From the IMG/VR virus record IMGVR_UViG_3300005613_000508, positions 1-20,193 of that record: DNA of 20,193 bases; one strand, given 5' to 3'. Positions 9,947 to 20,193 of the stretch are shown one piece after another. The notes below the pieces were generated by a model. The model was given only the letters and a program-made list of their open reading frames with translations, did not search any database and was not told the origin of the DNA. Source of the stretch: a virus. Each line of letters starts with the position of its first letter. Position 1 is the first letter of the stretch. Position numbers and translations under genes: made by a program.

Positions 9947-10010
9947 AAAGACGTAAGTGCTTGAAAACAAAGGACTTGTGACACAAAAAAAGATTTTCTG
10001 GATTTTCCGC

Positions 10011-10038
10011 TTGCAAGTGCCGATCTACTCTGTATAAT
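10011..10038 (+). promoter_or_regulatory. Early promoter P1
   Basis: TTGCAA, 16-bp spacer containing GCCGAT, TATAAT. The -35 lies in the palindrome CTTGCAAG. An A/T-rich tract (AAAAAAAGATTTTC) upstream resembles an UP element. Confidence 0.85.
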
Positions 10039-10080
10039 GGTAGCATGACAAGTGAGAACGACAACCACAAGGAAAGAAAA

Positions 10081-10272
10081 ATGAGCGTTGCACAAACCAC
10101 CGGATTCCGATTCACTCCGACCGCTGGAGAGCAGGACACTCTCTCGGCCATGAAACTAAGCCAGTACTGTCTTGAACGTCTGAAACTGACGGATAAAGAA
10201 AAGGAGTTTCACTACAACACGGTTTCACGTTGTGCTAAAGAACTGCGAAAGATCTTTTATCCCTCAAAGTAG
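10081..10272 (+). CDS. Hypothetical early protein, 63 aa
   Basis: First gene behind P1. The ATG at 10081 has AAGGAAAG upstream; an in-frame ATG at 10045 falls at the expected transcription start and is unlikely to be used. The protein is basic and helical in its second half (CLERLKLTDKEKEFHYNTVSRCAKELRKIFYPSK). No family is recognised. The operator-like GAAC-N4-GTTC and promoter P2 follow its stop within 30 bp. Confidence 0.75.
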   Translation: MSVAQTTGFRFTPTAGEQDTLSAMKLSQYCLERLKLTDKEKEFHYNTVSRCAKELRKIFYPSK

Positions 10273-10276
10273 TGGT

Positions 10277-10288
10277 GAACAAGTGTTC
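10277..10288. promoter_or_regulatory. GAAC-N4-GTTC operator-like box before P2
   Basis: GAACAAGTGTTC ends 4 bp before the P2 -35. The same box at the same distance precedes P7 (13340-13351). The core is the form bound by LexA/DinR in Firmicutes and Actinobacteria; a phage repressor is equally possible. Confidence 0.5.
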
Positions 10289-10292
10289 AGTG

Positions 10293-10320
10293 TTGACAGC
10301 CCAAAAATATCTGGTAGAAT
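10293..10320 (+). promoter_or_regulatory. Early promoter P2
   Basis: TTGACA, 16-bp spacer, TAGAAT. The spacer (GCCCAAAAATATCTGG) is nearly identical to that of P7 and similar in P4, so these three form a promoter subfamily. Confidence 0.85.
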
Positions 10321-10351
10321 CAGGACACCACAAAGGAAAAGGAAAGAAACA

Positions 10352-10570
10352 ATGAGCATCACCTATACCGGTCGCGTGTACGATACCTATGGCGAGATTC
10401 TTGAAGAGACGGAAGGCTATAGCGTAGAAGCCGTGGAACAGGATATACTGGACAAGTGGACAGGGTGCATTGAAGCCAAGTCCTATGTTGTATTGAACGA
10501 CGAGGATGGAAGTGAGGAAGCGGTAGAAGAGTTTCCTATCGTTAGTGTTAGTAAAACGTGGAACTATTAA
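10352..10570 (+). CDS. Hypothetical acidic protein, 72 aa
   Basis: Starts at ATG 10352 after AAAGGAAAAGGAAAG, the leader shared with the gene at 11490. The acidic protein (MSITYTGRVYDTYGEILEETEGYSVEAV...) probably has a beta-alpha-beta fold, with alternating beta strands at both ends. No family is recognised. First gene of the P2 unit. Confidence 0.78.
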   Translation: MSITYTGRVYDTYGEILEETEGYSVEAVEQDILDKWTGCIEAKSYVVLNDEDGSEEAVEEFPIVSVSKTWNY

Positions 10571-10593
10571 TGCAACTATTGAGGAATATAACA

Positions 10594-10767
10594 ATGTCCA
10601 GTTTTGATTATAGTGTACAATGCGAGGAAACATTCCAGCCTATGCGAATGGTATGGTCGGATTGTTGCGGGGAGTATATGTCACACGAACACGAACAGCA
10701 TGGTATCTGCCCATGCTGCGAGGAACATTGTGACGCGATTGTAGAAGATGTTATGGTTTGTAACTAA
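10594..10767 (+). CDS. Small zinc-ribbon-like protein, 57 aa
   Basis: ATG 10594 has GAGGAATATAAC upstream, better than the in-frame ATG at 10570 inside the preceding stop region. Cysteines pair as DCCGEY and CPCCEEHC with flanking histidines (HEHEQHGIC), so a zinc knuckle of the form CC...H...C.CC..HC is likely. Such small proteins are common among phage early genes; the function is unknown. Confidence 0.78.
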   Translation: MSSFDYSVQCEETFQPMRMVWSDCCGEYMSHEHEQHGICPCCEEHCDAIVEDVMVCN

Positions 10768-10778
10768 GGGAATATATC

Positions 10779-11018
10779 ATGCTCTATAGCATCATCAAGA
10801 GTGTACTATCCAAGCGGCTTTCGGCTGATGATATTGATGAAAACGACTGTGGCAAATATTGTATTGTAAAGCGTTCAGATGGTAGACTATTCCGTGGGTT
10901 TATTCAAGCCGTGCGAATAGTAAAGAGTAACAAACGCCATATGTTAACTATTCGCGTTCCCGGTGAAGGTTACAAGAATGTATATCTTGACGATTTAGTA
11001 TATACATTTGTTCAATAG
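10779..11018 (+). CDS. Hypothetical protein, 79 aa, beta-rich
   Basis: Last gene of the P2 unit, ribosome site AAGGGAATAT. The sequence alternates basic and hydrophobic beta strands (YCIVKRSDGRLFRGFIQAVRIVK, HMLTIRVPGEGYKNVYLDDLVYTF), reminiscent of a small SH3- or OB-like barrel, but no family is recognised. Cassette A follows. Confidence 0.75.
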   Translation: MLYSIIKSVLSKRLSADDIDENDCGKYCIVKRSDGRLFRGFIQAVRIVKSNKRHMLTIRVPGEGYKNVYLDDLVYTFVQ

Positions 11019-11033
11019 TAACAACCCCCGATT

Positions 11034-11163
11034 GTAGTATACAAAAATAGTAACACCCCCAATGGGGGGAATACCCCCCAGCCGCCGCAGAGCGGCCCTA
11101 AAGGGCCGCTCGTGTGTATTTCAACCCCCCTGAATGGGGGATTATCCCTCTGTATGGGGGTTC
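11034..11163 (+). repeat. Intergenic hairpin cassette A
   Basis: No gene in 11019-11200. Three parts: C5 (11056-11060), G6 (11064-11069) and C6 (11074-11079) blocks that can pair in two mutually exclusive ways; the palindrome with arms GAGCGGCCCT (11090-11099) and AGGGCCGCTC (11102-11111); then C6, G5, CCCTC and G5 blocks ending in GGGGGTT. Copies B to F share the layout. It separates the P2 and P3 units and probably terminates the former. Confidence 0.85.
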
Positions 11164-11164
11164 T

Positions 11165-11180
11165 AGCAAACGGTGTGCCA
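11165..11180. promoter_or_regulatory. Half of the 34-bp dyad, upstream of P3
   Basis: The minus strand reads TGGCACACCGTTTGCT, one arm of the dyad found complete before P5, P6 and P12. The left arm is missing here. It lies 20 bp before the P3 -35, with an A/T-rich tract between. Confidence 0.6.
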
Positions 11181-11200
11181 GAAAAATCTTTTCTAAGGTG

Positions 11201-11228
11201 TTGACAGGGAAAATGCCGATGCTAGAAT
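11201..11228 (+). promoter_or_regulatory. Early promoter P3
   Basis: TTGACA, 16-bp spacer with GCCGAT, TAGAAT. Confidence 0.85.
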
Positions 11229-11269
11229 AGTGGCATAGAGAAGAACGGAAAACGAAAAGGAAGAAAATC

Positions 11270-11434
11270 ATGACCGTCTACGTTGCTCGCGTTCAAGGTT
11301 GGGAAGACTCGTATACCCTTGGTGTGTTCACGACAGAAGAAGAGGCCATGGAAGCCGGTCGTCTCTATGTTCAGGAACGCGAACTGGAAGACTATTCGTG
11401 GGTCGCAGAAAAGTTTCAGGTTCAGGGGGCTTGA
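11270..11434 (+). CDS. Hypothetical protein, 54 aa
   Basis: Only gene of the P3 unit. ATG 11270 follows AAAAGGAAGAAAATC. The sequence MTVYVARVQGWEDSYTLGVFTTEEEAMEAG... has a beta hairpin followed by an amphipathic helix, resembling small proteins that carry a 'GVFTTEEEA' SPOR/RNase H1-N-like motif, but a family cannot be assigned. Its TGA stop (11432-11434) lies inside the -35 hexamer of the next promoter, P4, so there is no spacer between units. Confidence 0.78.
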   Translation: MTVYVARVQGWEDSYTLGVFTTEEEAMEAGRLYVQERELEDYSWVAEKFQVQGA

Positions 11435-11460
11435 CAAGCCCAAAAGGTATTTGGTAGAAT
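11431..11460 (+). promoter_or_regulatory. Early promoter P4, overlapping a stop codon
   Basis: TTGACA, 18-bp spacer, TAGAAT. It lies directly on the end of the 54-aa gene. The downstream leader (CACCACAAAGGAAAAGGAAAG) is the same as that of P2. Confidence 0.8.
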
Positions 11461-11489
11461 CAGAGCACCACAAAGGAAAAGGAAAGAAA

Positions 11490-11669
11490 ATGAAATGGTT
11501 GCCAATCCAAAGCGATGCCTGTGATATGTATGTGGATTCTGATTGTGATCACTTTTCCATCAAGACAAATGAGGATGCCTTTGACGGAGAGGTTTCAGCC
11601 CTTGCCATGCTAACAAAGGAAGACGCCAAAAAACTTCGGGACTATCTTGATGCCTTCATCAACTCATGA
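11490..11669 (+). CDS. Hypothetical protein, 59 aa
   Basis: First gene of the P4 unit, ribosome site AAAAGGAAAG. It has an N-terminal strand segment with Cys and Asp residues (SDACDMYVDSDCDHFSIKT), then helix LTKEDAKKLRDYLDAFI, which resembles the C-terminal helix of many small phage proteins. No family is recognised. Confidence 0.75.
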   Translation: MKWLPIQSDACDMYVDSDCDHFSIKTNEDAFDGEVSALAMLTKEDAKKLRDYLDAFINS

Positions 11670-11697
11670 TAGACTAGAGAAAACCAAAGGAAAGAAA

Positions 11698-11889
11698 ATG
11701 AAAAGCCCATTTCAAGTTAACCCCGAAGCGTTTGCCAGGATCATGAAAAGTTTTGAGGAGATTGCTGTTCTGGACGATTATTCACCAGAGCCAGAAGATG
11801 CCGATTGGGATGGATTTTACGATTTTGAGGTTGACGATGGGCAACCCACCGAGTATGATGAATGGCAGAGTTTTGACCCCGATTGCTAG
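11698..11889 (+). CDS. Highly acidic small protein, 63 aa
   Basis: ATG 11698 has CAAAGGAAAG upstream. About 19 Asp/Glu against three Lys/Arg, with the acidic residues concentrated after residue 20 (LDDYSPEPEDADWDGFYDFEVDDG). No family is recognised. The charge pattern would suit a DNA-mimic protein; that is inference only. Second gene of the P4 unit. Confidence 0.72.
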   Translation: MKSPFQVNPEAFARIMKSFEEIAVLDDYSPEPEDADWDGFYDFEVDDGQPTEYDEWQSFDPDC

Positions 11890-11899
11890 GAGATTCAAG

Positions 11900-12145
11900 A
11901 TGAGCGATTTTGACAACGACGAACTTTGGTTTGATGCTCTGGAAGATTTTCGCGGACCAGAAATCACCGCAGAAGAGATGGAGTGGAGTGTGAGCGATGC
12001 CGACTATGAGGCTTGGCTTGCCCGTAGGTCAGAAAAGTTGAAGCGGAAAACAGCCCGCGACCATGAGGCTGAAACTAGAGCGAAGACTCTAGCATTCTAC
12101 ATGAATGAGGACAATATCCTGAACGAACGTTCACTGTGGGAATGA
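11900..12145 (+). CDS. Hypothetical protein, 81 aa, duplicated module copy 1
   Basis: ATG 11900 follows AGGAGATTCAAG. The protein runs MSDFDNDELWFDALEDFRGPE..., then a charged helical region (RRSEKLKRKTARDHEAETRAKTLAFYMNEDN) ending NERSLWE. From about residue 13 it is nearly identical to residues 43-112 of the gene at 13414, and the DNA is also nearly identical, so one is a recent duplicate. No family is recognised. Last gene of the P4 unit. Confidence 0.78.
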   Translation: MSDFDNDELWFDALEDFRGPEITAEEMEWSVSDADYEAWLARRSEKLKRKTARDHEAETRAKTLAFYMNEDNILNERSLWE

Positions 12146-12153
12146 AAATCTGT

Positions 12154-12301
12154 ACACTACCCCATTGGGGGATAACCCCCCTTTGGGGCTTAGTGTGTTT
12201 TTGTACACCCCTCTAATGGGTGATCAGCCGCCGCAGAGCGGCCCTAAAGGGCCGCTCGTGTGCGTTTCAACCCCCCGAAGGTGGGGATCGTTGGGTTTTT
12301 T
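12154..12301 (+). repeat. Intergenic hairpin cassette B
   Basis: No gene in 12146-12364. First a nested hairpin: ACACTA (12154-12159) pairs with TAGTGT (12191-12196) around C/G blocks and is followed by GTTTTTG, an intrinsic terminator. Then the palindrome GAGCGGCCCT (12236-12245) / AGGGCCGCTC (12248-12257). Then AACCC...GGGG...GGGTTTTTT (12269-12301), where the C block can pair with either G block and the second is followed by T6. Confidence 0.85.
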
Positions 12302-12334
12302 GGCATGGTATTTGCATATGCAAATGCTGTGCCA
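12301..12334. promoter_or_regulatory. 34-bp dyad with sigma54-like arms, before P5
   Basis: Outer TGGCA/TGCCA and a perfect inner palindrome ATTTGCATATGCAAAT (12310-12325). Each arm fits TGGCAY-N5-TTGCW: TGGCAT-GGTAT-TTGCA rightward and TGGCAC-AGCAT-TTGCA leftward. It lies 30 bp before the P5 -35, separated by A-tracts. Confidence 0.75.
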
Positions 12335-12364
12335 GAAAAAAACAAAAAAAACTGATCCAACCTG

Positions 12365-12393
12365 TTGACACTGGCCGATGATAGTGGTACAAT
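12365..12393 (+). promoter_or_regulatory. Early promoter P5
   Basis: TTGACA, 17-bp spacer with GCCGATGATAG, TACAAT. Confidence 0.82.
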
Positions 12394-12431
12394 CAATGTA
12401 GTTGAGTTGATCACCCCCCGGAGGTTTAACC

Positions 12432-12593
12432 ATGACCGTGCGAGTTGACGACGACATGATTCAGTGCCCGTTTGATATGACCGTGGAACAGTTTGACGCC
12501 GCTCTAGAGCAGTTTGCTCTGGGCATGGATGATCTTGACTGTGGCGAACACGAACAGCCCGACGATCACGATTGGCAGGATTGTCCCTGGTGA
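12432..12593 (+). CDS. Highly acidic small protein, 53 aa
   Basis: First gene of the P5 unit. ATG 12432 has a strong CGGAGG site. About 16 Asp/Glu against one Arg; the end (CGEHEQPDDHDWQDCPW) is rich in His, Asp and Trp. No family is recognised. A perfect terminator follows its stop by 8 nt, so it may be made as a short monocistronic transcript. A DNA-mimic or inhibitor role is only a guess from charge. Confidence 0.75.
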   Translation: MTVRVDDDMIQCPFDMTVEQFDAALEQFALGMDDLDCGEHEQPDDHDWQDCPW

Positions 12594-12601
12594 ACCTTTG
12601 T

Positions 12602-12630
12602 CCCTCCCCCTTCGGGGGGAGGGCATTTTT
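12602..12630 (+). terminator. Intrinsic terminator with UUCG tetraloop
   Basis: CCCTCCCCC (12602-12610), loop TTCG, GGGGGAGGG (12615-12623), then CATTTTT. A perfect 9-bp stem. The next gene lies only 24 bp beyond with no new promoter, so read-through or partial termination must supply it. Confidence 0.93.
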
Positions 12631-12646
12631 AACTTTGGAGAATACT

Positions 12647-12919
12647 ATGAGCGACAATAACACCACAATCCTTCACCCCTCTATGATTGTATCATTTTGC
12701 TATAATGGCAAAGATCGTTATGGTACAATCACCGCCGTTCGCCAAACAGGGATCGGAACGCTATTTACTATTGATAATAAATCGTATTATTATCATAGGT
12801 GCGAAAAGTTTAATATCTGCCACAATCCTAGGTGGTACAAAAAACCGAGCCAAAGCGGCTATCAAGGAACGGGCGAGCCGTATGATGCCTGGAAAGATCG
12901 TCAACTTGAACTATACTAA
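12647..12919 (+). CDS. Hypothetical protein, 90 aa
   Basis: ATG 12647 has TTGGAGAATACT upstream; an earlier in-frame ATG at 12572 would read through the terminator and is rejected. The first half is beta-rich (MIVSFCYNGKDRYGTITAVRQTGIGTLFTIDNKSYYYHRCEKF), like a small barrel, with a polar Trp/Tyr-rich tail (GEPYDAWKDRQLELY). No family is recognised. Confidence 0.78.
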   Translation: MSDNNTTILHPSMIVSFCYNGKDRYGTITAVRQTGIGTLFTIDNKSYYYHRCEKFNICHNPRWYKKPSQSGYQGTGEPYDAWKDRQLELY

Positions 12920-12937
12920 TCGTGAGGAAAACTACTT

Positions 12938-13030
12938 ATGAATGATGGTGATATGGATGTTGTTTGTATTGTTTTGTTTCTTGCTGTTACTACTTTCTGC
13001 ATTTTCTATAGTTATACTCCTATCTGTTAA
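12938..13030 (+). CDS. Membrane microprotein, 30 aa
   Basis: ATG 12938 follows GTGAGGAAAACTACTT (GAGG spaced 10 nt). It has an acidic N-terminus (MNDGDMD), one hydrophobic span (VVCIVLFLAVTTFCIFY) and a short polar end. A single-pass inner-membrane peptide is likely. Function unknown. Last gene of the P5 unit; cassette C follows. Confidence 0.6.
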   Translation: MNDGDMDVVCIVLFLAVTTFCIFYSYTPIC

Positions 13031-13044
13031 TGTATAGCCCAAAA

Positions 13045-13160
13045 GGGGGGGTGTTAATATACACCCCCCCAATGGGTGTTTATACCCCCAGCCGCGTCGG
13101 AGCGGCCCTAAAGGGCCGCTCGCCGTGTGTCAACCCCCTCTGATGGGGGATCGCGGGGTT
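13045..13160 (+). repeat. Intergenic hairpin cassette C
   Basis: No gene in 13031-13229. A perfect 10-bp hairpin, GGGGGGGTGT (13045-13054) with ACACCCCCCC (13061-13070), loop TAATAT; the palindrome GAGCGGCCCT (13100-13109) / AGGGCCGCTC (13112-13121); then CAACCCCC...GGGGGATCGCGGGGTTT (13131-13161), the third hairpin with two competing G blocks. Confidence 0.85.
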
Positions 13161-13194
13161 TGGCATAATATTTGCCTTAGCAAACGGCGTGCCA
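13161..13194. promoter_or_regulatory. 34-bp dyad with sigma54-like arms, before P6
   Basis: TGGCA (13161-13165) and TGCCA (13190-13194) with inner TTTGC/GCAAA. Arms: rightward TGGCAT-AATAT-TTGCC, leftward TGGCAC-GCCGT-TTGCT. Same 34-bp length as the copies at 12301 and 19588. It lies 35 bp before the P6 -35. Confidence 0.75.
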
Positions 13195-13229
13195 AACACG
13201 AAAAAAGTTTTTCCGCGTTTTTTTAAGAC

Positions 13230-13257
13230 TTGACAACACAAAAGCCGATGATATACT
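13230..13257 (+). promoter_or_regulatory. Early promoter P6
   Basis: TTGACA, 16-bp spacer with AGCCGATG, TATACT. Confidence 0.8.
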
Positions 13258-13263
13258 TGGGGT

Positions 13264-13341
13264 ATGGAAAACATCATCATAATCATCATTCTCTCGGGCT
13301 TGGCCTTCCTGTTTTGGATCACCCTTCCCGACAACTACTGA
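13264..13341 (+). CDS. Possible leaderless membrane microprotein, 25 aa
   Basis: ATG 13264 lies 7 nt after the P6 -10, where transcription should start, so any mRNA would be leaderless. The peptide MENIIIIIILSGLAFLFWIT plus LPDNY is one hydrophobic span with charged ends, too regular to dismiss. The TGA stop overlaps the GAAC box before P7. No ribosome site is possible on a transcript starting here, which lowers confidence. Confidence 0.42.
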   Translation: MENIIIIIILSGLAFLFWITLPDNY

Positions 13342-13351
13342 ACAAACGTTC
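13340..13351. promoter_or_regulatory. GAAC-N4-GTTC operator-like box before P7
   Basis: GAACAAACGTTC, 4 bp before the P7 -35, the same geometry as the box before P2. It overlaps the stop of the 25-aa ORF. Confidence 0.5.
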
Positions 13352-13355
13352 AGTA

Positions 13356-13383
13356 TTGACGGCCCAAAAATATCTGGTAGAAT
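13356..13383 (+). promoter_or_regulatory. Early promoter P7
   Basis: TTGACG, 16-bp spacer, TAGAAT. About 45 bp including the operator-like box are nearly identical to P2. Confidence 0.83.
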
Positions 13384-13413
13384 CAGAGCATCATCAACCC
13401 AAGGAATCCAAAA

Positions 13414-13752
13414 ATGAAACCCTATACATATCATGGCGTTGACTACAATCTGCTTTCCATTGAAGAGTTTGAAGCCGCCATCGCAGAACTCACTAGAGAG
13501 GCTGAGAGCATCCCTCTCCCGGAGGGTGAAGAGTTTTTTGACGCTCTTGAAGATTTTCGCGGCCCCGAAATCACTGAAGAGGAAAAAGAGTGGAGTGTGA
13601 GCGATGCTGATTATGCGGCTTGGCTTGATCGTAGGTCAGAAAAGTTGAAGAGAAAAACAGCCCGTGATCATGAGGCTGAAACTAGAGCGAAAACTCTAGC
13701 ATTTTACATGAATGAGGACAATATCCTGAACGAACGTTCACTGTGGGATTGA
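13414..13752 (+). CDS. Hypothetical protein, 112 aa, duplicated module copy 2 with extra N-terminus
   Basis: Start ATG 13414 has CAAGGAATCC upstream. Residues 1-40 (MKPYTYHGVDYNLLSIEEFEAAIAE...) are unique; residues 43-112 repeat the protein at 11900 almost exactly. The duplicated DNA spans about 13549-13749 against 11941-12141 with mostly synonymous differences, so the copy was fused to, or lost, an N-terminal segment recently and has stayed under selection. Family not recognised. First of three genes in the P7 unit. Confidence 0.82.
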   Translation: MKPYTYHGVDYNLLSIEEFEAAIAELTREAESIPLPEGEEFFDALEDFRGPEITEEEKEWSVSDADYAAWLDRRSEKLKRKTARDHEAETRAKTLAFYMNEDNILNERSLWD

Positions 13753-13755
13753 ATC

Positions 13756-14019
13756 ATGACTACTAAAGAACTGAAACAACACATTAGGAATGGTAAATAC
13801 GCTTGGCCGGGAGGCTATCCTATTTACTTTGTAGCGTCTGATGGTGAAGTACTATCGTTTGATACAGTAAAGAAAAACTATCGTGAGGTGTTATATGCTA
13901 TGAAATACTTTGGGGATTTTAGTGGTTGGAATGTTATTGCTGTTGATGTAAACTACGAAAACGAAAACTTGATCTGTGCCCATAGTGGCGAAAAGATTGA
14001 ATCAGCCTACGGAGAATAA
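13756..14019 (+). CDS. Conserved-looking phage protein, 87 aa
   Basis: The sequence MTTKELKQHIRNGKYAWPGGYPIYFVASDGEVLSFDTVKKNYREVLYAM... ending CAHSGEKIESAYGE resembles a hypothetical family I have seen repeatedly in phages (WPGGYP.YF...DG..L.F..V..NY). The ending resembles half of a zinc site (C..H.G). It starts 3 nt after the previous stop with a weak ribosome site, so translation is probably coupled. Function unknown. Confidence 0.82.
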   Translation: MTTKELKQHIRNGKYAWPGGYPIYFVASDGEVLSFDTVKKNYREVLYAMKYFGDFSGWNVIAVDVNYENENLICAHSGEKIESAYGE

Positions 14020-14021
14020 TA

Positions 14022-14348
14022 ATGTATCAAGGTTATCATAATCACGCAACGTTTCTTGTGAAAGTATGGATTGATAATGATCAGGGAAATGTGGAGTATT
14101 GGGTTGAGCAGGCCCAAGATTTATACATCAACCATGCGGAAGATACTAAGTATTTTACAAAGCGAGAAGAGGCTATCATTCTTCTTTCGGAAAGTATGAA
14201 AGAATACTATGAAGTTTGTATGCCAGAAAGTGATGATATTGGGGGATTGTGGTCCGATCTTTTACATTCCGCCCTTTCTGATGTTGACTGGCACGAACTT
14301 GCCGGTATGATTATGGAACGGGCGTTGGAAAACTTTGAAACTGTATAG
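14022..14348 (+). CDS. Phage protein of the YxGYxNxxT...WIDNDQ family, 108 aa
   Basis: It opens MYQGYHNHATFLVKVWIDNDQGNVEYWVEQAQ, the signature of a widespread small phage and plasmid family (I believe DUF7249) whose members usually read YNNYETWxVxLWIDND. The rest is helical (LLHSALSDVDWHELAGMIMERAL). Function unknown. It starts 2 nt after the preceding stop with AGAATAATA upstream. Last gene of the P7 unit; hairpin D begins at its stop codon. Confidence 0.85.
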   Translation: MYQGYHNHATFLVKVWIDNDQGNVEYWVEQAQDLYINHAEDTKYFTKREEAIILLSESMKEYYEVCMPESDDIGGLWSDLLHSALSDVDWHELAGMIMERALENFETV

Positions 14349-14466
14349 TATACAACCCGCTTGGGGGGTTAATCCCCCCTGGCGGGCTATACGAGCCGCG
14401 ACGGAGCGGCCTTAAAAGGCCGCTCGCCCTGTGTCAAGCCCCCCGAAGGTGGGGATCGTGGGTTTT
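14348..14466 (+). repeat. Intergenic hairpin cassette D
   Basis: A long nested hairpin: GTATA (14348-14352) / TATAC (14388-14392), CCCGC (14356-14360) / GCGGG (14382-14386), GGGGGG (14363-14368) / CCCCCC (14374-14379). Then the palindrome GAGCGGCCTT (14404-14413) / AAGGCCGCTC (14416-14425), which differs from A-C by a paired C:G to T:A change. Then AAGCCCC...GGGG...GGGTTTTTT (14435-14466). Confidence 0.88.
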
Positions 14467-14476
14467 TTGTTTTTTC

Positions 14477-14493
14477 TCAAGAATACCGCTTGA
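14477..14493. promoter_or_regulatory. TCAAG-N7-CTTGA dyad overlapping the P8 -35
   Basis: TCAAG (14477-14481) and CTTGA (14489-14493). The right arm includes the first four bases of the -35, so a bound dimer would block RNA polymerase. Copies before P9 and P10. Confidence 0.55.
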
Positions 14494-14517
14494 CGTTGCC
14501 GATATACTTTGTAGAAT
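14490..14517 (+). promoter_or_regulatory. Early promoter P8
   Basis: TTGACG, 16-bp spacer with GCCGAT, TAGAAT. Confidence 0.83.
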
Positions 14518-14544
14518 GAGAGTATCACCAACGGAGACGAGAAA

Positions 14545-15249
14545 ATGAAAGTAGCAAACGGGAACGACAAACTGGGTAAGGGCTGCGTTGTTGTTAGCCG
14601 TCCGGTGGGCGATACTTGCCCCTCAACGTGTGCATTCTTGGGCAATGGGTGCTATGCCGAAGCGACGGAACGACAGTATAAGAATGTTCGCCCCGCTAGT
14701 ATGCAAAACGTTATAACTGAAGTAGCCCGCATTCGCAGCATGATCATTGATGCTATTAAGCGTGGAAAGTCTATCCGATGGCACGAACGGGGAGATTGGT
14801 TTCTTGATGGAAAACTTGATGAGGACTATGTTAATAACGTTAGTGTTGCTTGTGAATCTGTTATCAAGTCCGGTTATACTTTACCCGATATGTGGTTTTA
14901 CACTCATATTTATGATAGCCGACTTGTTTCACTAGAAAAGTATATGGCAGTGTATGCTAGCATTCACAATGCGGAAGATATGGCGACAGCCAAGCGAGTA
15001 GGTTTCAAACTGTTCGCATGGTGTGATTCCGACGAGGCTATTGTATCAAAGCGTCCTCGCGGTAAAGTAAAGAAAGCCGCATGGCAAGCCGCCCTTCCTA
15101 AACTTGTGGTGCTGGAAGGTGAAACGTTTGTAACGTGCCCAGAGATACGCAAGGGGCGTGACTTTGTAACATGCACGGGAAGTAAAGATAGTAACGCCTG
15201 CAATATGTGTCCTCGCGGTAAGAAAAATGTACTATTCCCTTCTCATTAG
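14545..15249 (+). CDS. Cys-rich phage protein resembling the mycobacteriophage gp88 family, 234 aa
   Basis: Start supported by GGAGACG. The N-terminus has KLGKGCVVVSRPVGDTCPSTCAFLGNGCYAE (Cys at about 13, 24, 28, 35); the C-terminus has FVTCPEIRKGRDFVTC, SNACNMCPRGKKNVLFPSH. Between lie GKSIRWHERGDWF and FKLFAWCDSDEA. The spaced Cys clusters and the closing C..C......V.F..H are like the phage gp88-type family, possibly metal or Fe-S binding. The reaction is unknown. It is the largest early gene here and first in the P8 unit. Confidence 0.82.
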   Translation: MKVANGNDKLGKGCVVVSRPVGDTCPSTCAFLGNGCYAEATERQYKNVRPASMQNVITEVARIRSMIIDAIKRGKSIRWHERGDWFLDGKLDEDYVNNVSVACESVIKSGYTLPDMWFYTHIYDSRLVSLEKYMAVYASIHNAEDMATAKRVGFKLFAWCDSDEAIVSKRPRGKVKKAAWQAALPKLVVLEGETFVTCPEIRKGRDFVTCTGSKDSNACNMCPRGKKNVLFPSH

Positions 15250-15604: not shown

Positions 15605-15611
15605 GAAAATC

Positions 15612-15627
15612 TCAAGATTCCGCTTGA
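15612..15627. promoter_or_regulatory. TCAAG-N6-CTTGA dyad overlapping the P9 -35
   Basis: TCAAG (15612-15616), CTTGA (15623-15627); the CCG before CTTGA is also shared with P8. Confidence 0.55.
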
Positions 15628-15651
15628 CAATGCCGATATAGAGTGTATAAT
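15624..15651 (+). promoter_or_regulatory. Early promoter P9
   Basis: TTGACA, 16-bp spacer with GCCGAT, TATAAT. The predicted start, about 15658-15660, coincides with the first base of the structured RNA that follows. Confidence 0.87.
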
Positions 15652-15659
15652 CAAAGCAT

Positions 15660-15763
15660 CGCCCAGCCAAGCAAGATGGAGTACAGATAGGCTATCTTAT
15701 CACTTGACATAGCCTAGTGTTTCTGGTAAGATACTGTACTGAGGTGCGAGTCCTACCTGGGTG
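15660..15763 (+). ncRNA. 104-nt tRNA-like RNA with internal pseudoknot, copy 1
   Basis: Outer stem CGCCCAG (15660-15666) / CTGGGTG (15757-15763), 7 bp like a tRNA acceptor. Next CCA/TGG mini-hairpin (15667-15679) in the D-arm place. A 17-bp helix is made of AGTACAG/CTGTACT (15680-15686, 15734-15740) and TATCTTATCA/TGGTAAGATA (15693-15702, 15724-15733). The bulge TAGGC (15688-15692) can pair with loop GCCTA (15712-15716). A T-arm-like hairpin AGG-TGCGAGT-CCT (15742-15754) lies at tRNA spacing from the 3' stem. It follows P9 exactly and ends in TTTT. Identical to 20087-20190. It is either a free RNA or a leader for the gene at 15788. Confidence 0.7.
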
Positions 15764-16815: not shown

Positions 16816-17349
16816 ATGAACATCTTCATACTAGACGCTGATCCGGTGACGGCAGCGGAGATGTACTGCGATAAGCATGTACCTAAGATGGTGGTGGAAC
16901 TCTATCAACAGATGGGCAGTGCTTTACGCAGGCACGGGGCTACTGACGATCAGATGCCTCTCACGCAGGCTGGCAAGCCCCTCAAGGGCGGATATCACCA
17001 TCATCCATGTACGCAGTGGGTTGGCGACTCTATGGCAAACTACGCATGGGCATGGCTTCATGCCAAACAGTTGTGCAGAGAGTATACGTTGAGATATGGC
17101 AAACAACATTTTTGTGAGTCTGGCATTGATAAGATGGGGGATTTTCCTATTTATGAGATGTTTGATTGGGAGGCTAGCACACCCTATGCTCAGGCCATGC
17201 CGGATGAATACAAGAATAGCGATGCCGTGGAAGCATATCGTACCTACTACTGGAACGACAAGCGGCGTTTTGCTAAGTGGGAGAAAGGTCGTAGTGCCCC
17301 AAAGTGGTGGAAAAAAATGCAGTTGACAACTCAAGTTTGTGGTGTATAA
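16816..17349 (+). CDS. Phage protein of the MNIF...D.DP..AA...CDKH family, 177 aa
   Basis: ATG 16816 follows AAGGGAGAACGA. The start MNIFILDADPVTAAEMYCDKHVPKMVVEL, the HHHPCTQWVGDSMANYAWAW block, EYTLRYGKQH, and TPYAQAMPDEYKNSDAVEAYRTYYWNDKRRFAKW form a recognisable phage family, often left hypothetical and sometimes linked to pyrimidine-dimer glycosylases; I would not commit to an activity. Conserved His, Cys and Trp suggest a metal or DNA site. Only gene of the P10 unit. Its TAA stop lies within the -10 box of P11. Confidence 0.85.
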   Translation: MNIFILDADPVTAAEMYCDKHVPKMVVELYQQMGSALRRHGATDDQMPLTQAGKPLKGGYHHHPCTQWVGDSMANYAWAWLHAKQLCREYTLRYGKQHFCESGIDKMGDFPIYEMFDWEASTPYAQAMPDEYKNSDAVEAYRTYYWNDKRRFAKWEKGRSAPKWWKKMQLTTQVCGV

Positions 17350-19587: not shown

Positions 19588-19621
19588 TGGCACAGAACTT
19601 GCACGAGCAAATATCATGCCA
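19588..19621. promoter_or_regulatory. 34-bp dyad with sigma54-like arms, before P12
   Basis: TGGCA (19588-19592) and TGCCA (19617-19621). Arms: rightward TGGCAC-AGAAC-TTGCA, a full match to the sigma54 consensus, and leftward TGGCAT-GATAT-TTGCT. It lies 33 bp before the P12 -35 with T8 between. Confidence 0.75.
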
Positions 19622-19654
19622 TAGAAAATCTTTTTTTTAGGCTAATCTCAACAG

Positions 19655-19682
19655 TTGACAATGACGATACTAGGTGTATAAT
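19655..19682 (+). promoter_or_regulatory. Early promoter P12
   Basis: TTGACA, 16-bp spacer (ATGACGATACTAGGTG, one base off the GCCGAT word), TATAAT. Confidence 0.87.
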
Positions 19683-20074: not shown

Positions 20075-20086
20075 TTTTTAAAACTT

Positions 20087-20190
20087 CGCCCAGCCAAGCA
20101 AGATGGAGTACAGATAGGCTATCTTATCACTTGACATAGCCTAGTGTTTCTGGTAAGATACTGTACTGAGGTGCGAGTCCTACCTGGGTG
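20087..20190 (+). ncRNA. 104-nt tRNA-like RNA with internal pseudoknot, copy 2
   Basis: Base-for-base identical to 15660-15763, including one T before and three T after. Here it lies 12 nt after tRNA-Arg on the P12 transcript rather than at a transcript start, so in this copy it would have to be released by tRNA-type processing. The window ends 3 nt beyond it. Confidence 0.7.
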
Positions 20191-20193
20191 TTT

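Follow-up and report, generated by a model that had tools for sequence, protein, structure and literature searches.

Facing sigma54-like arms form a putative host-responsive element upstream of sigma70-type promoters in phage DNA

Organization of the locus

The window, by which we mean the whole stretch of 20,193 bases of viral DNA that was analysed, includes genes for a terminase large subunit and for a protein with sigma-70 region 2. It also carries three 34-bp dyads, in each of which two arms of the form TGGCAY-N5-TTGC face each other, and one additional single arm. The pattern TGGCAYN5TTGC matches exactly seven times with zero mismatches, and these are precisely the seven arms of the initial annotation; 2.2 single arms are expected in the shuffled window, even with one mismatch allowed. 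The full 34-bp pattern has exactly three matches in the whole 20,193-base record, as had been reported. The half copy is a true single arm, oriented away from its downstream gene. The N5 parts differ between copies, and each full dyad consists of one TGGCAC arm and one TGGCAT arm. The features are listed below.

11166..11180, (-): single arm TGGCACACCGTTTGC, without a facing partner
11201..11228, (+): sigma70-type promoter TTGACAGGGAAAATGCCGATGCTAGAAT, 3' of the single arm, gap 20 bp
12301..12334, no strand: dyad 1, two facing sigma54-like arms, TGGCATGGTATTTGC-ATAT-GCAAATGCTGTGCCA; arms at 12301-12315(+) and 12320-12334(-)
12335..12353, (+): A tract, dyad 1 to the -35 box
12365..12393, (+): sigma70-type promoter TTGACACTGGCCGATGATAGTGGTACAAT, 3' of dyad 1, gap 30 bp
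12432..12593, (+): 53-aa ORF, the first gene past dyad 1 and its promoter
13161..13194, no strand: dyad 2, TGGCATAATATTTGC-CTTA-GCAAACGGCGTGCCA; arms at 13161-13175(+) and 13180-13194(-)
13198..13226, (+): A/T tracts, dyad 2 to the -35 box
13231..13258, (+): sigma70-type promoter TTGACAACACAAAAGCCGATGATATACT, 3' of dyad 2, gap 36 bp
19588..19621, no strand: dyad 3, TGGCACAGAACTTGC-ACGA-GCAAATATCATGCCA; arms at 19588-19602(+) and 19607-19621(-)
19622..19639, (+): A/T tract, dyad 3 to the -35 box
19655..19682, (+): sigma70-type promoter TTGACAATGACGATACTAGGTGTATAAT, 3' of dyad 3, gap 33 bp

The sites thus lie 5' of sigma70-type -35 boxes across A/T tracts, as first described. The gaps were counted on the sequence from the dyad or half site to TTGACA; that of dyad 2 is 35 in the promoter scan, whose -35 start may shift one base either way.

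Several other repeated features were seen in the window. Seven sigma70-type promoters (11201, 12365, 13231, 14492, 15624, 16765 and 19655) have in common a GCCGAT(GATA)-like motif within the -35/-10 spacer, with a dyad upstream or not. A repeated, terminator-like GC-rich hairpin with C/G runs (gagcggccctaaagggccgctc and variants) precedes most of the window promoters, again with or without a dyad (11091-11112, 12236-12257, 13101-13122, about 14398, 15540 and 16670). The ORFs at 11930-12141 and 13530-13748 are paralogous, their C-terminal parts being nearly identical, and 15611-15760 and 20080-20193 form a near-identical duplicate with a promoter and a tRNA-like end. The gene at 14545-15249 is of the GP88/DUF7227 type, and related genes occur near arms in 18 DNA-similarity groups.

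A blastn search with positions 10000-14600 of the window found no similar phage record. A relative of the window, record G023, is up to 98% identical to it over parts. Both paralogous ORFs match one G023 region, and both copies of the duplicate match G023 around 41.2-41.4 kb. The promoter TTGACGTTGCCGATATACTTTGTAGAAT is identical in G023 and the window, with a dyad just upstream in G023 only:

14467..14545, (+): comparison site in the window, promoter identical to that of G023, dyad absent

The homology between the two ends at the T tract (14467), and dyads are therefore exchangeable modules placed upstream. G023 has 27-bp palindromes of the form GTAAGT-N15-ACTTAC next to its dyads, on the flank that does not face the promoter, in pairs exactly 53 bp apart. 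Similar palindromes are present in five other loci (L005, L067, L089, L101 and L120); none was found near the dyads of the window. Those lying beside dyads are:

L145/G023: 39442-46535
L005: 2515, 3601, 3654
L120: 166, 1089
L089: 1979, 3118

Their placement resembles that of an enhancer pair, and as a lead they may be regarded as candidate regulator sites.

Occurrence in viral and cellular DNA

When the scan for the 34-bp pattern was extended from the record to viral DNA at large, the exact dyad was found in at least 120 stretches in IMG/VR. In contrast, only seven matches were present in 257 Gb of bacterial and archaeal genomes, where about one is expected by chance, as estimated from the 38 bits of the pattern. 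Three of the seven (L125, L128 and L129) are perfect hairpins of another class and were set aside. The others are near chance level; only L130, with two dyads on a 4.3-kb contig of a Verrucomicrobiia MAG, looks real and phage-like. Neither two control palindromes of equal information content nor the same arms placed back-to-back at 4 bp gave any match in all of IMG/VR. Dyads also avoid coding DNA, since 25 of 141 sites lie inside ORFs over 100 aa, versus a coding coverage of 70%. The dyad is real, widespread and essentially confined to viral DNA. Single RpoN sites are general in bacteria, but pairs of this form hardly occur in cellular genomes.

The carriers are diverse, including relatives of the window, a large podovirus-like group, Pakpunaviruses and T5-like Vibrio phages. 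The named hosts of carriers belong to Pseudomonas and Vibrio, two genera that have RpoN. Positions 80960-80993 of Pseudomonas phage vB_PaeM_C2-10_Ab02 match the dyad exactly, and the 622-bp intergenic region is matched by 135 Pseudomonas phage records. The dyad of PAK_P4, at about 55.82 kb, is located 11 bp upstream of a minus-strand TTGACA-N16-TAGAAT and adjoins PAK_P4as16, a non-coding RNA annotated from RNA-seq; no link to sigma54 was found in the text on the PAK_P3 transcriptome. Pakpunaviruses and diverged Pseudomonas phages (of P. putida, P. plecoglossicida and Antarctic Pseudomonas) retain the dyad in the same position ahead of a sigma70 promoter, while N5 and N4 change. The dyad of Kassivere has 3-bp spacing and TATGC, and that of UAVern has GTGC. 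Vibrio phage VCPH contains an exact dyad in a 1.27-kb region upstream of the A2-A3 gene. In Vibrio phages pVp-1 and KIT04 (L434 and L435), LexA-like (ACTGTATATTTATACAGT) and DnaA boxes were seen between sigma54-like arms within one intergenic region. The dyads of L060 are absent from MW202554, which is another phage.

Base profile of the arms

The arms have the TGGCAC-N5-TTGCW core with near-invariant GG and GC. The loci behind the spacing and profile statistics were retrieved with patterns in which the core is fixed, so that independent evidence comes only from the mismatch spectrum and the free positions. At the free positions, the arms have C/T at.56/.44 (position 6), G/A at.60/.37 (position 7), T at positions 9-10 and A/T at 16-17, and paired and isolated arms share one common profile. 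In Salmonella, the 29 intergenic RpoN ChIP sites used for comparison have C/T at.59/.38, G/A at.66/.34 and A/T at 16-17 (PMC3844500). The E. coli gSELEX motif of RpoN is TGGCACnnTTnTTGC (PMC8743547). The arms agree with both in the C/T and G/A ratios, the spacer TT, the following A/T and the near-invariant GG and GC.

The mismatch spectrum was obtained from dyads with up to three mismatches within 1.08 Mb. At 17 or more matches out of 20, 148 dyads were found versus 1 in the shuffled control. Mismatches are almost confined to position 12, the first T of TTGC (21), which is also the weakest position of the Salmonella RpoN sites, and to C4>T (10, with A4 once). The first G of GG and the G of GC are never changed. 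This is the pattern that would be expected of sigma54 sites. The prediction that the arms have the binding specificity of sigma54 recognition sites is, on these profiles, well supported.

Spacing, orientation and promoter context

When the scan imposed no spacing, facing arms were most often 4 bp apart (34 cases), followed by 3 bp (22), 5 bp (16), 6 bp (11) and a tail; they were never 0-2 bp apart. The length of exactly 34 bp claimed initially is therefore the mode but not a rule. We also rejected a rigid dimer that would need 4 bp between its arms, as the strictness was a bias of the spacing-fixed pattern.

Longer distances were compared in 392 loci belonging to 166 DNA-similarity groups. Arms placed back-to-back are concentrated at 5-10, 15-21 and 25-32 bp (peaks at 7, 17 and about 27) and are nearly missing at 11-14 and 22-24 bp. 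Face-to-face arms cluster at 3-10, 14, 20-23 and 30-31 bp (peaks at 4, 14, 20-23 and 31). In an earlier subset, the Rayleigh p for the back-to-back phasing was 2e-4 with a period of 10.5 bp, which was chosen by us; periods of 10-13 bp scored alike. Some loci hold arrays of up to 21 arms. Polymerases, being large, account for the helical phasing and the dense arrays less well than a small cooperative protein would. Placement of arms on the same face is equally expected from several sigma54 sites sharing one enhancer as from a cooperative small protein.

The combination of one C arm and one T arm extends beyond the window. Positions 6-8 are anti-correlated between the two arms of a dyad, with 99 of 130 dyads being C/T where 64 are expected, and Watson-Crick pairs between the arms number 133 versus 174 +/- 9.6 in shuffles. 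Perfect palindromes are thus avoided, and this self-pairing below that of shuffles led us to reject an RNA hairpin.

Consensus sigma70 promoters around 240 dyads point outward in 25 cases (within 100 bp) versus inward in 6 (within 140 bp), and paired arms are found in 307 divergent versus 67 convergent intergenic settings. Isolated arms show no significant orientation relative to downstream genes (28 versus 17; in a second count 30 versus 21, p=0.26), and the median distance from arm to gene start is about 260-325 bp. A bidirectional dyad needs no gene-directed orientation, but isolated arms should show it if they were promoters. Their not being gene-directed weighs more heavily than any other observation against a simple promoter function.

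Sites for host regulators near the arms

Palindromes of the form TGCAC-N7-GTGCA occur 39 times within 315 bp of arms versus 8 times elsewhere, although the far DNA is several times larger. Other spacings of the same box (0-6 and 8-15) occur 0-2 times each near arms. Most of these boxes read TGCACCAnnnTGGTGCA, the published NtrC consensus; NtrC being an activator of sigma54, they test the sigma54 reading independently of the arm profile. The enrichment near arms is 22.6-fold when only non-coding DNA is considered, but the matches fall into 6 DNA-similarity groups and the effective sample is therefore small. NtrC boxes accompany arms in about 6 lineages only, at distances of 26-260 bp in some of them. 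In the reverse test, with 110 loci retrieved by the NtrC box alone, arms per kb are 17-fold more frequent within 400 bp of the box than outside, although only 9 of the 110 loci have arms near it. The window has no convincing NtrC box; its one match, at 17295, has 2 mismatches and is at chance level.

As a separate observation, canonical NtrC boxes are grouped by threes to sevens in some viral contigs, several of which have no sigma54-like arms close to the boxes:

L448: 3218-3433
L507: 2042-2257
L179: 806-1113
Also in L439, L469 and L501

Near NtrC boxes in L179, L195 and L448, a further recurrent palindrome like TTAGTGAGTACTCACT / AGTAAGCACTGACTAAC was noticed, which is also present in the control regions of the podovirus loci L020, L022 and L035.

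Three other kinds of host site are frequent near arms. First, DnaA boxes occur at 0.240/kb near arms versus 0.050/kb in far non-coding DNA; in non-coding DNA their enrichment is 7.5-fold, and they were found in 13 lineages. Second, strict LexA boxes number 10 near arms versus 0 far from them. Third, IHF-like sites are 4.0-fold enriched near arms in non-coding DNA, but four scrambles reach 1.1-3.0-fold, so that this enrichment is supportive and not clean.

Search for the binding protein

In a phmmer comparison (E 1e-3) of six diverse carrier genomes and the window, no shared DNA-binding protein was detected, diverged or truncated cases being able to escape such a search. A search of carriers for a protein with an RpoN box gave one spurious match and no true one. 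No Sigma54_DBD domain (PF04552) exceeded the cut-off in 40 carrier records, and no Sigma54_activat domain (PF00158), i.e. no bEBP gene, was found in 49, many of the records in both sets being fragments. If sigma54 is involved, activation must therefore come from the host. A motif unchanged across unrelated phages, with no shared gene for its binder, argues for a conserved host protein, and the specificity predicted from the arms is that of RpoN.

Interpretation and alternatives

We favour, with modest confidence, the explanation that the dyad is a bidirectional, putative sigma54 element that responds to the state of the host and is placed upstream of ordinary sigma70-type promoters. Each arm would be a recognition site for host sigma54 (RpoN) RNA polymerase. 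Two facing arms, with their -12 elements 3-7 bp apart, would make a compact bidirectional element, open in either orientation to one polymerase at a time; the predicted start, about 12 nt past TTGC, falls inside the opposite arm. Its place 5' of a sigma70-type promoter recalls tandem sigma54/sigma70 control regions. It may respond to host enhancer-binding proteins, namely NtrC in lineages with NtrC boxes, and in relatives of the window perhaps another enhancer-binding protein acting at the 27-bp palindromes. Binding of RpoN, transcription start at the dyad and tuning of phage expression or replication to the host state are what we infer here. Of the two face-to-face sigma54 promoters suggested in the initial annotation, the sigma54 part has gained from the RpoN-like profile and the enriched NtrC boxes, but the promoter part has suffered from the isolated arms, which do not point at genes.

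This neutrality of orientation in divergent intergenic regions would suit a decoy, in which non-coding islands of consensus sites for RpoN, NtrC, DnaA, LexA and IHF titrate host regulators and do not start transcription. The co-enrichment of DnaA, strict LexA and NtrC boxes, the arrays of up to 21 arms, the 7 NtrC boxes in L179 and the near absence of the pattern from cellular genomes are also consistent with it. However, two polymerases do not fit on facing arms with 4 bp between them, which would make a wasteful sponge, the window has only three dyads, and the ordered distances upstream of sigma70 promoters and the helical phasing are left unexplained. We consider a decoy role unlikely.

The phasing is better accommodated by an operator that a small protein of phage or host, other than RpoN, binds cooperatively on one face of the DNA; it would regulate early promoters or an origin and resemble sigma54 sites through convergence or because it mimics the sigma54 promoters of the host. 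Periodic distances of both back-to-back and face-to-face arms across the 166 DNA-similarity groups, the lack of orientation bias and the nearby DnaA-box arrays agree with such an operator. Yet the likeness to RpoN sites extends to degenerate positions and NtrC boxes accompany the arms; the six carriers and the window have no protein in common in the phmmer comparison, and neither an RpoN-box-like protein nor a Sigma54_DBD over the cut-off was found; moreover, several sigma54 sites facing one shared enhancer would produce phasing as well. We judge an operator of this kind improbable. The same evidence bears on the phage regulator proposed initially: no regulator gene shared by the six carriers and the window was found, and the helical phasing leaves room for a small cooperative protein.

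A packaging, replication-origin or RNA-hairpin element with incidental sigma54 likeness is very improbable: a terminase gene cluster turns up in 56 of the 166 groups, with 241 member proteins over the 392 loci, and DnaA boxes lie near dyads, but dyads are not beside the terminase in the window or in Pakpunaviruses, self-complementarity of the arms is avoided and not favoured, and the NtrC boxes would be left unexplained.

Relation to known systems

Palindromic operators are known from the promoters of Pseudomonas phages, such as those of SrpA and LfsT, with the motifs NTATC..GATAN and AACN..GTT (PMC5945682, PMC9769523). Although these are likewise palindromes in phage promoters, they were rejected for the dyad because the motifs differ. 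In the open-access literature, outside of which most subscription papers fall, we found neither facing sigma54 pairs nor sigma54/NtrC elements of phages described. Dependence of phages on sigma54 has hardly been described so far, and the present data suggest that phages plug into, or soak up, the stress and nutrient switch of the host. As a tentative generalization, the dyads may represent a virus-specific class of bidirectional sigma54 elements in unrelated phage families, which would tie early expression or origin use to the nitrogen or stress state of the host (NtrC-RpoN), or titrate those regulators, within control islands with DnaA, LexA and IHF sites. If true, many phages read, use or sequester this switch, and the outcome of infection is linked to host nutrition.

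The arms have the same core, spacer and base preferences as sigma54 -24/-12 promoters (PMC3844500, PMC8743547). Classical sigma54 control regions likewise have NtrC boxes, seen here in some carrier lineages, and IHF-like sites, enriched here. Unlike sigma54 promoters, the sites of a dyad point towards each other and their predicted start regions overlap, the arms are not gene-oriented and lie far from start codons, and the pair is essentially viral only. RpoN holoenzyme has been proposed as a repressor of RpoD promoters (PMC8743547). The likeness to that model would be unactivated RpoN occupying a site close to a sigma70 promoter, which is predicted here; in contrast to it, the dyads of the window are 30-36 bp upstream of the -35 box and not over the core promoter, and those of Pakpunaviruses are 11 bp upstream. 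NtrC enhancer boxes have exact matches beside arms in several phage lineages, and relatives of the window have the 27-bp palindromes in their place. Finally, promoters of the glnA type are tandem sigma70/sigma54 promoters. The phage regions share with them a sigma54-type site next to the sigma70 promoter of the same transcription unit; unlike the glnA type, the sigma54-type site is a dyad, lies upstream and has a second arm pointing the opposite way.
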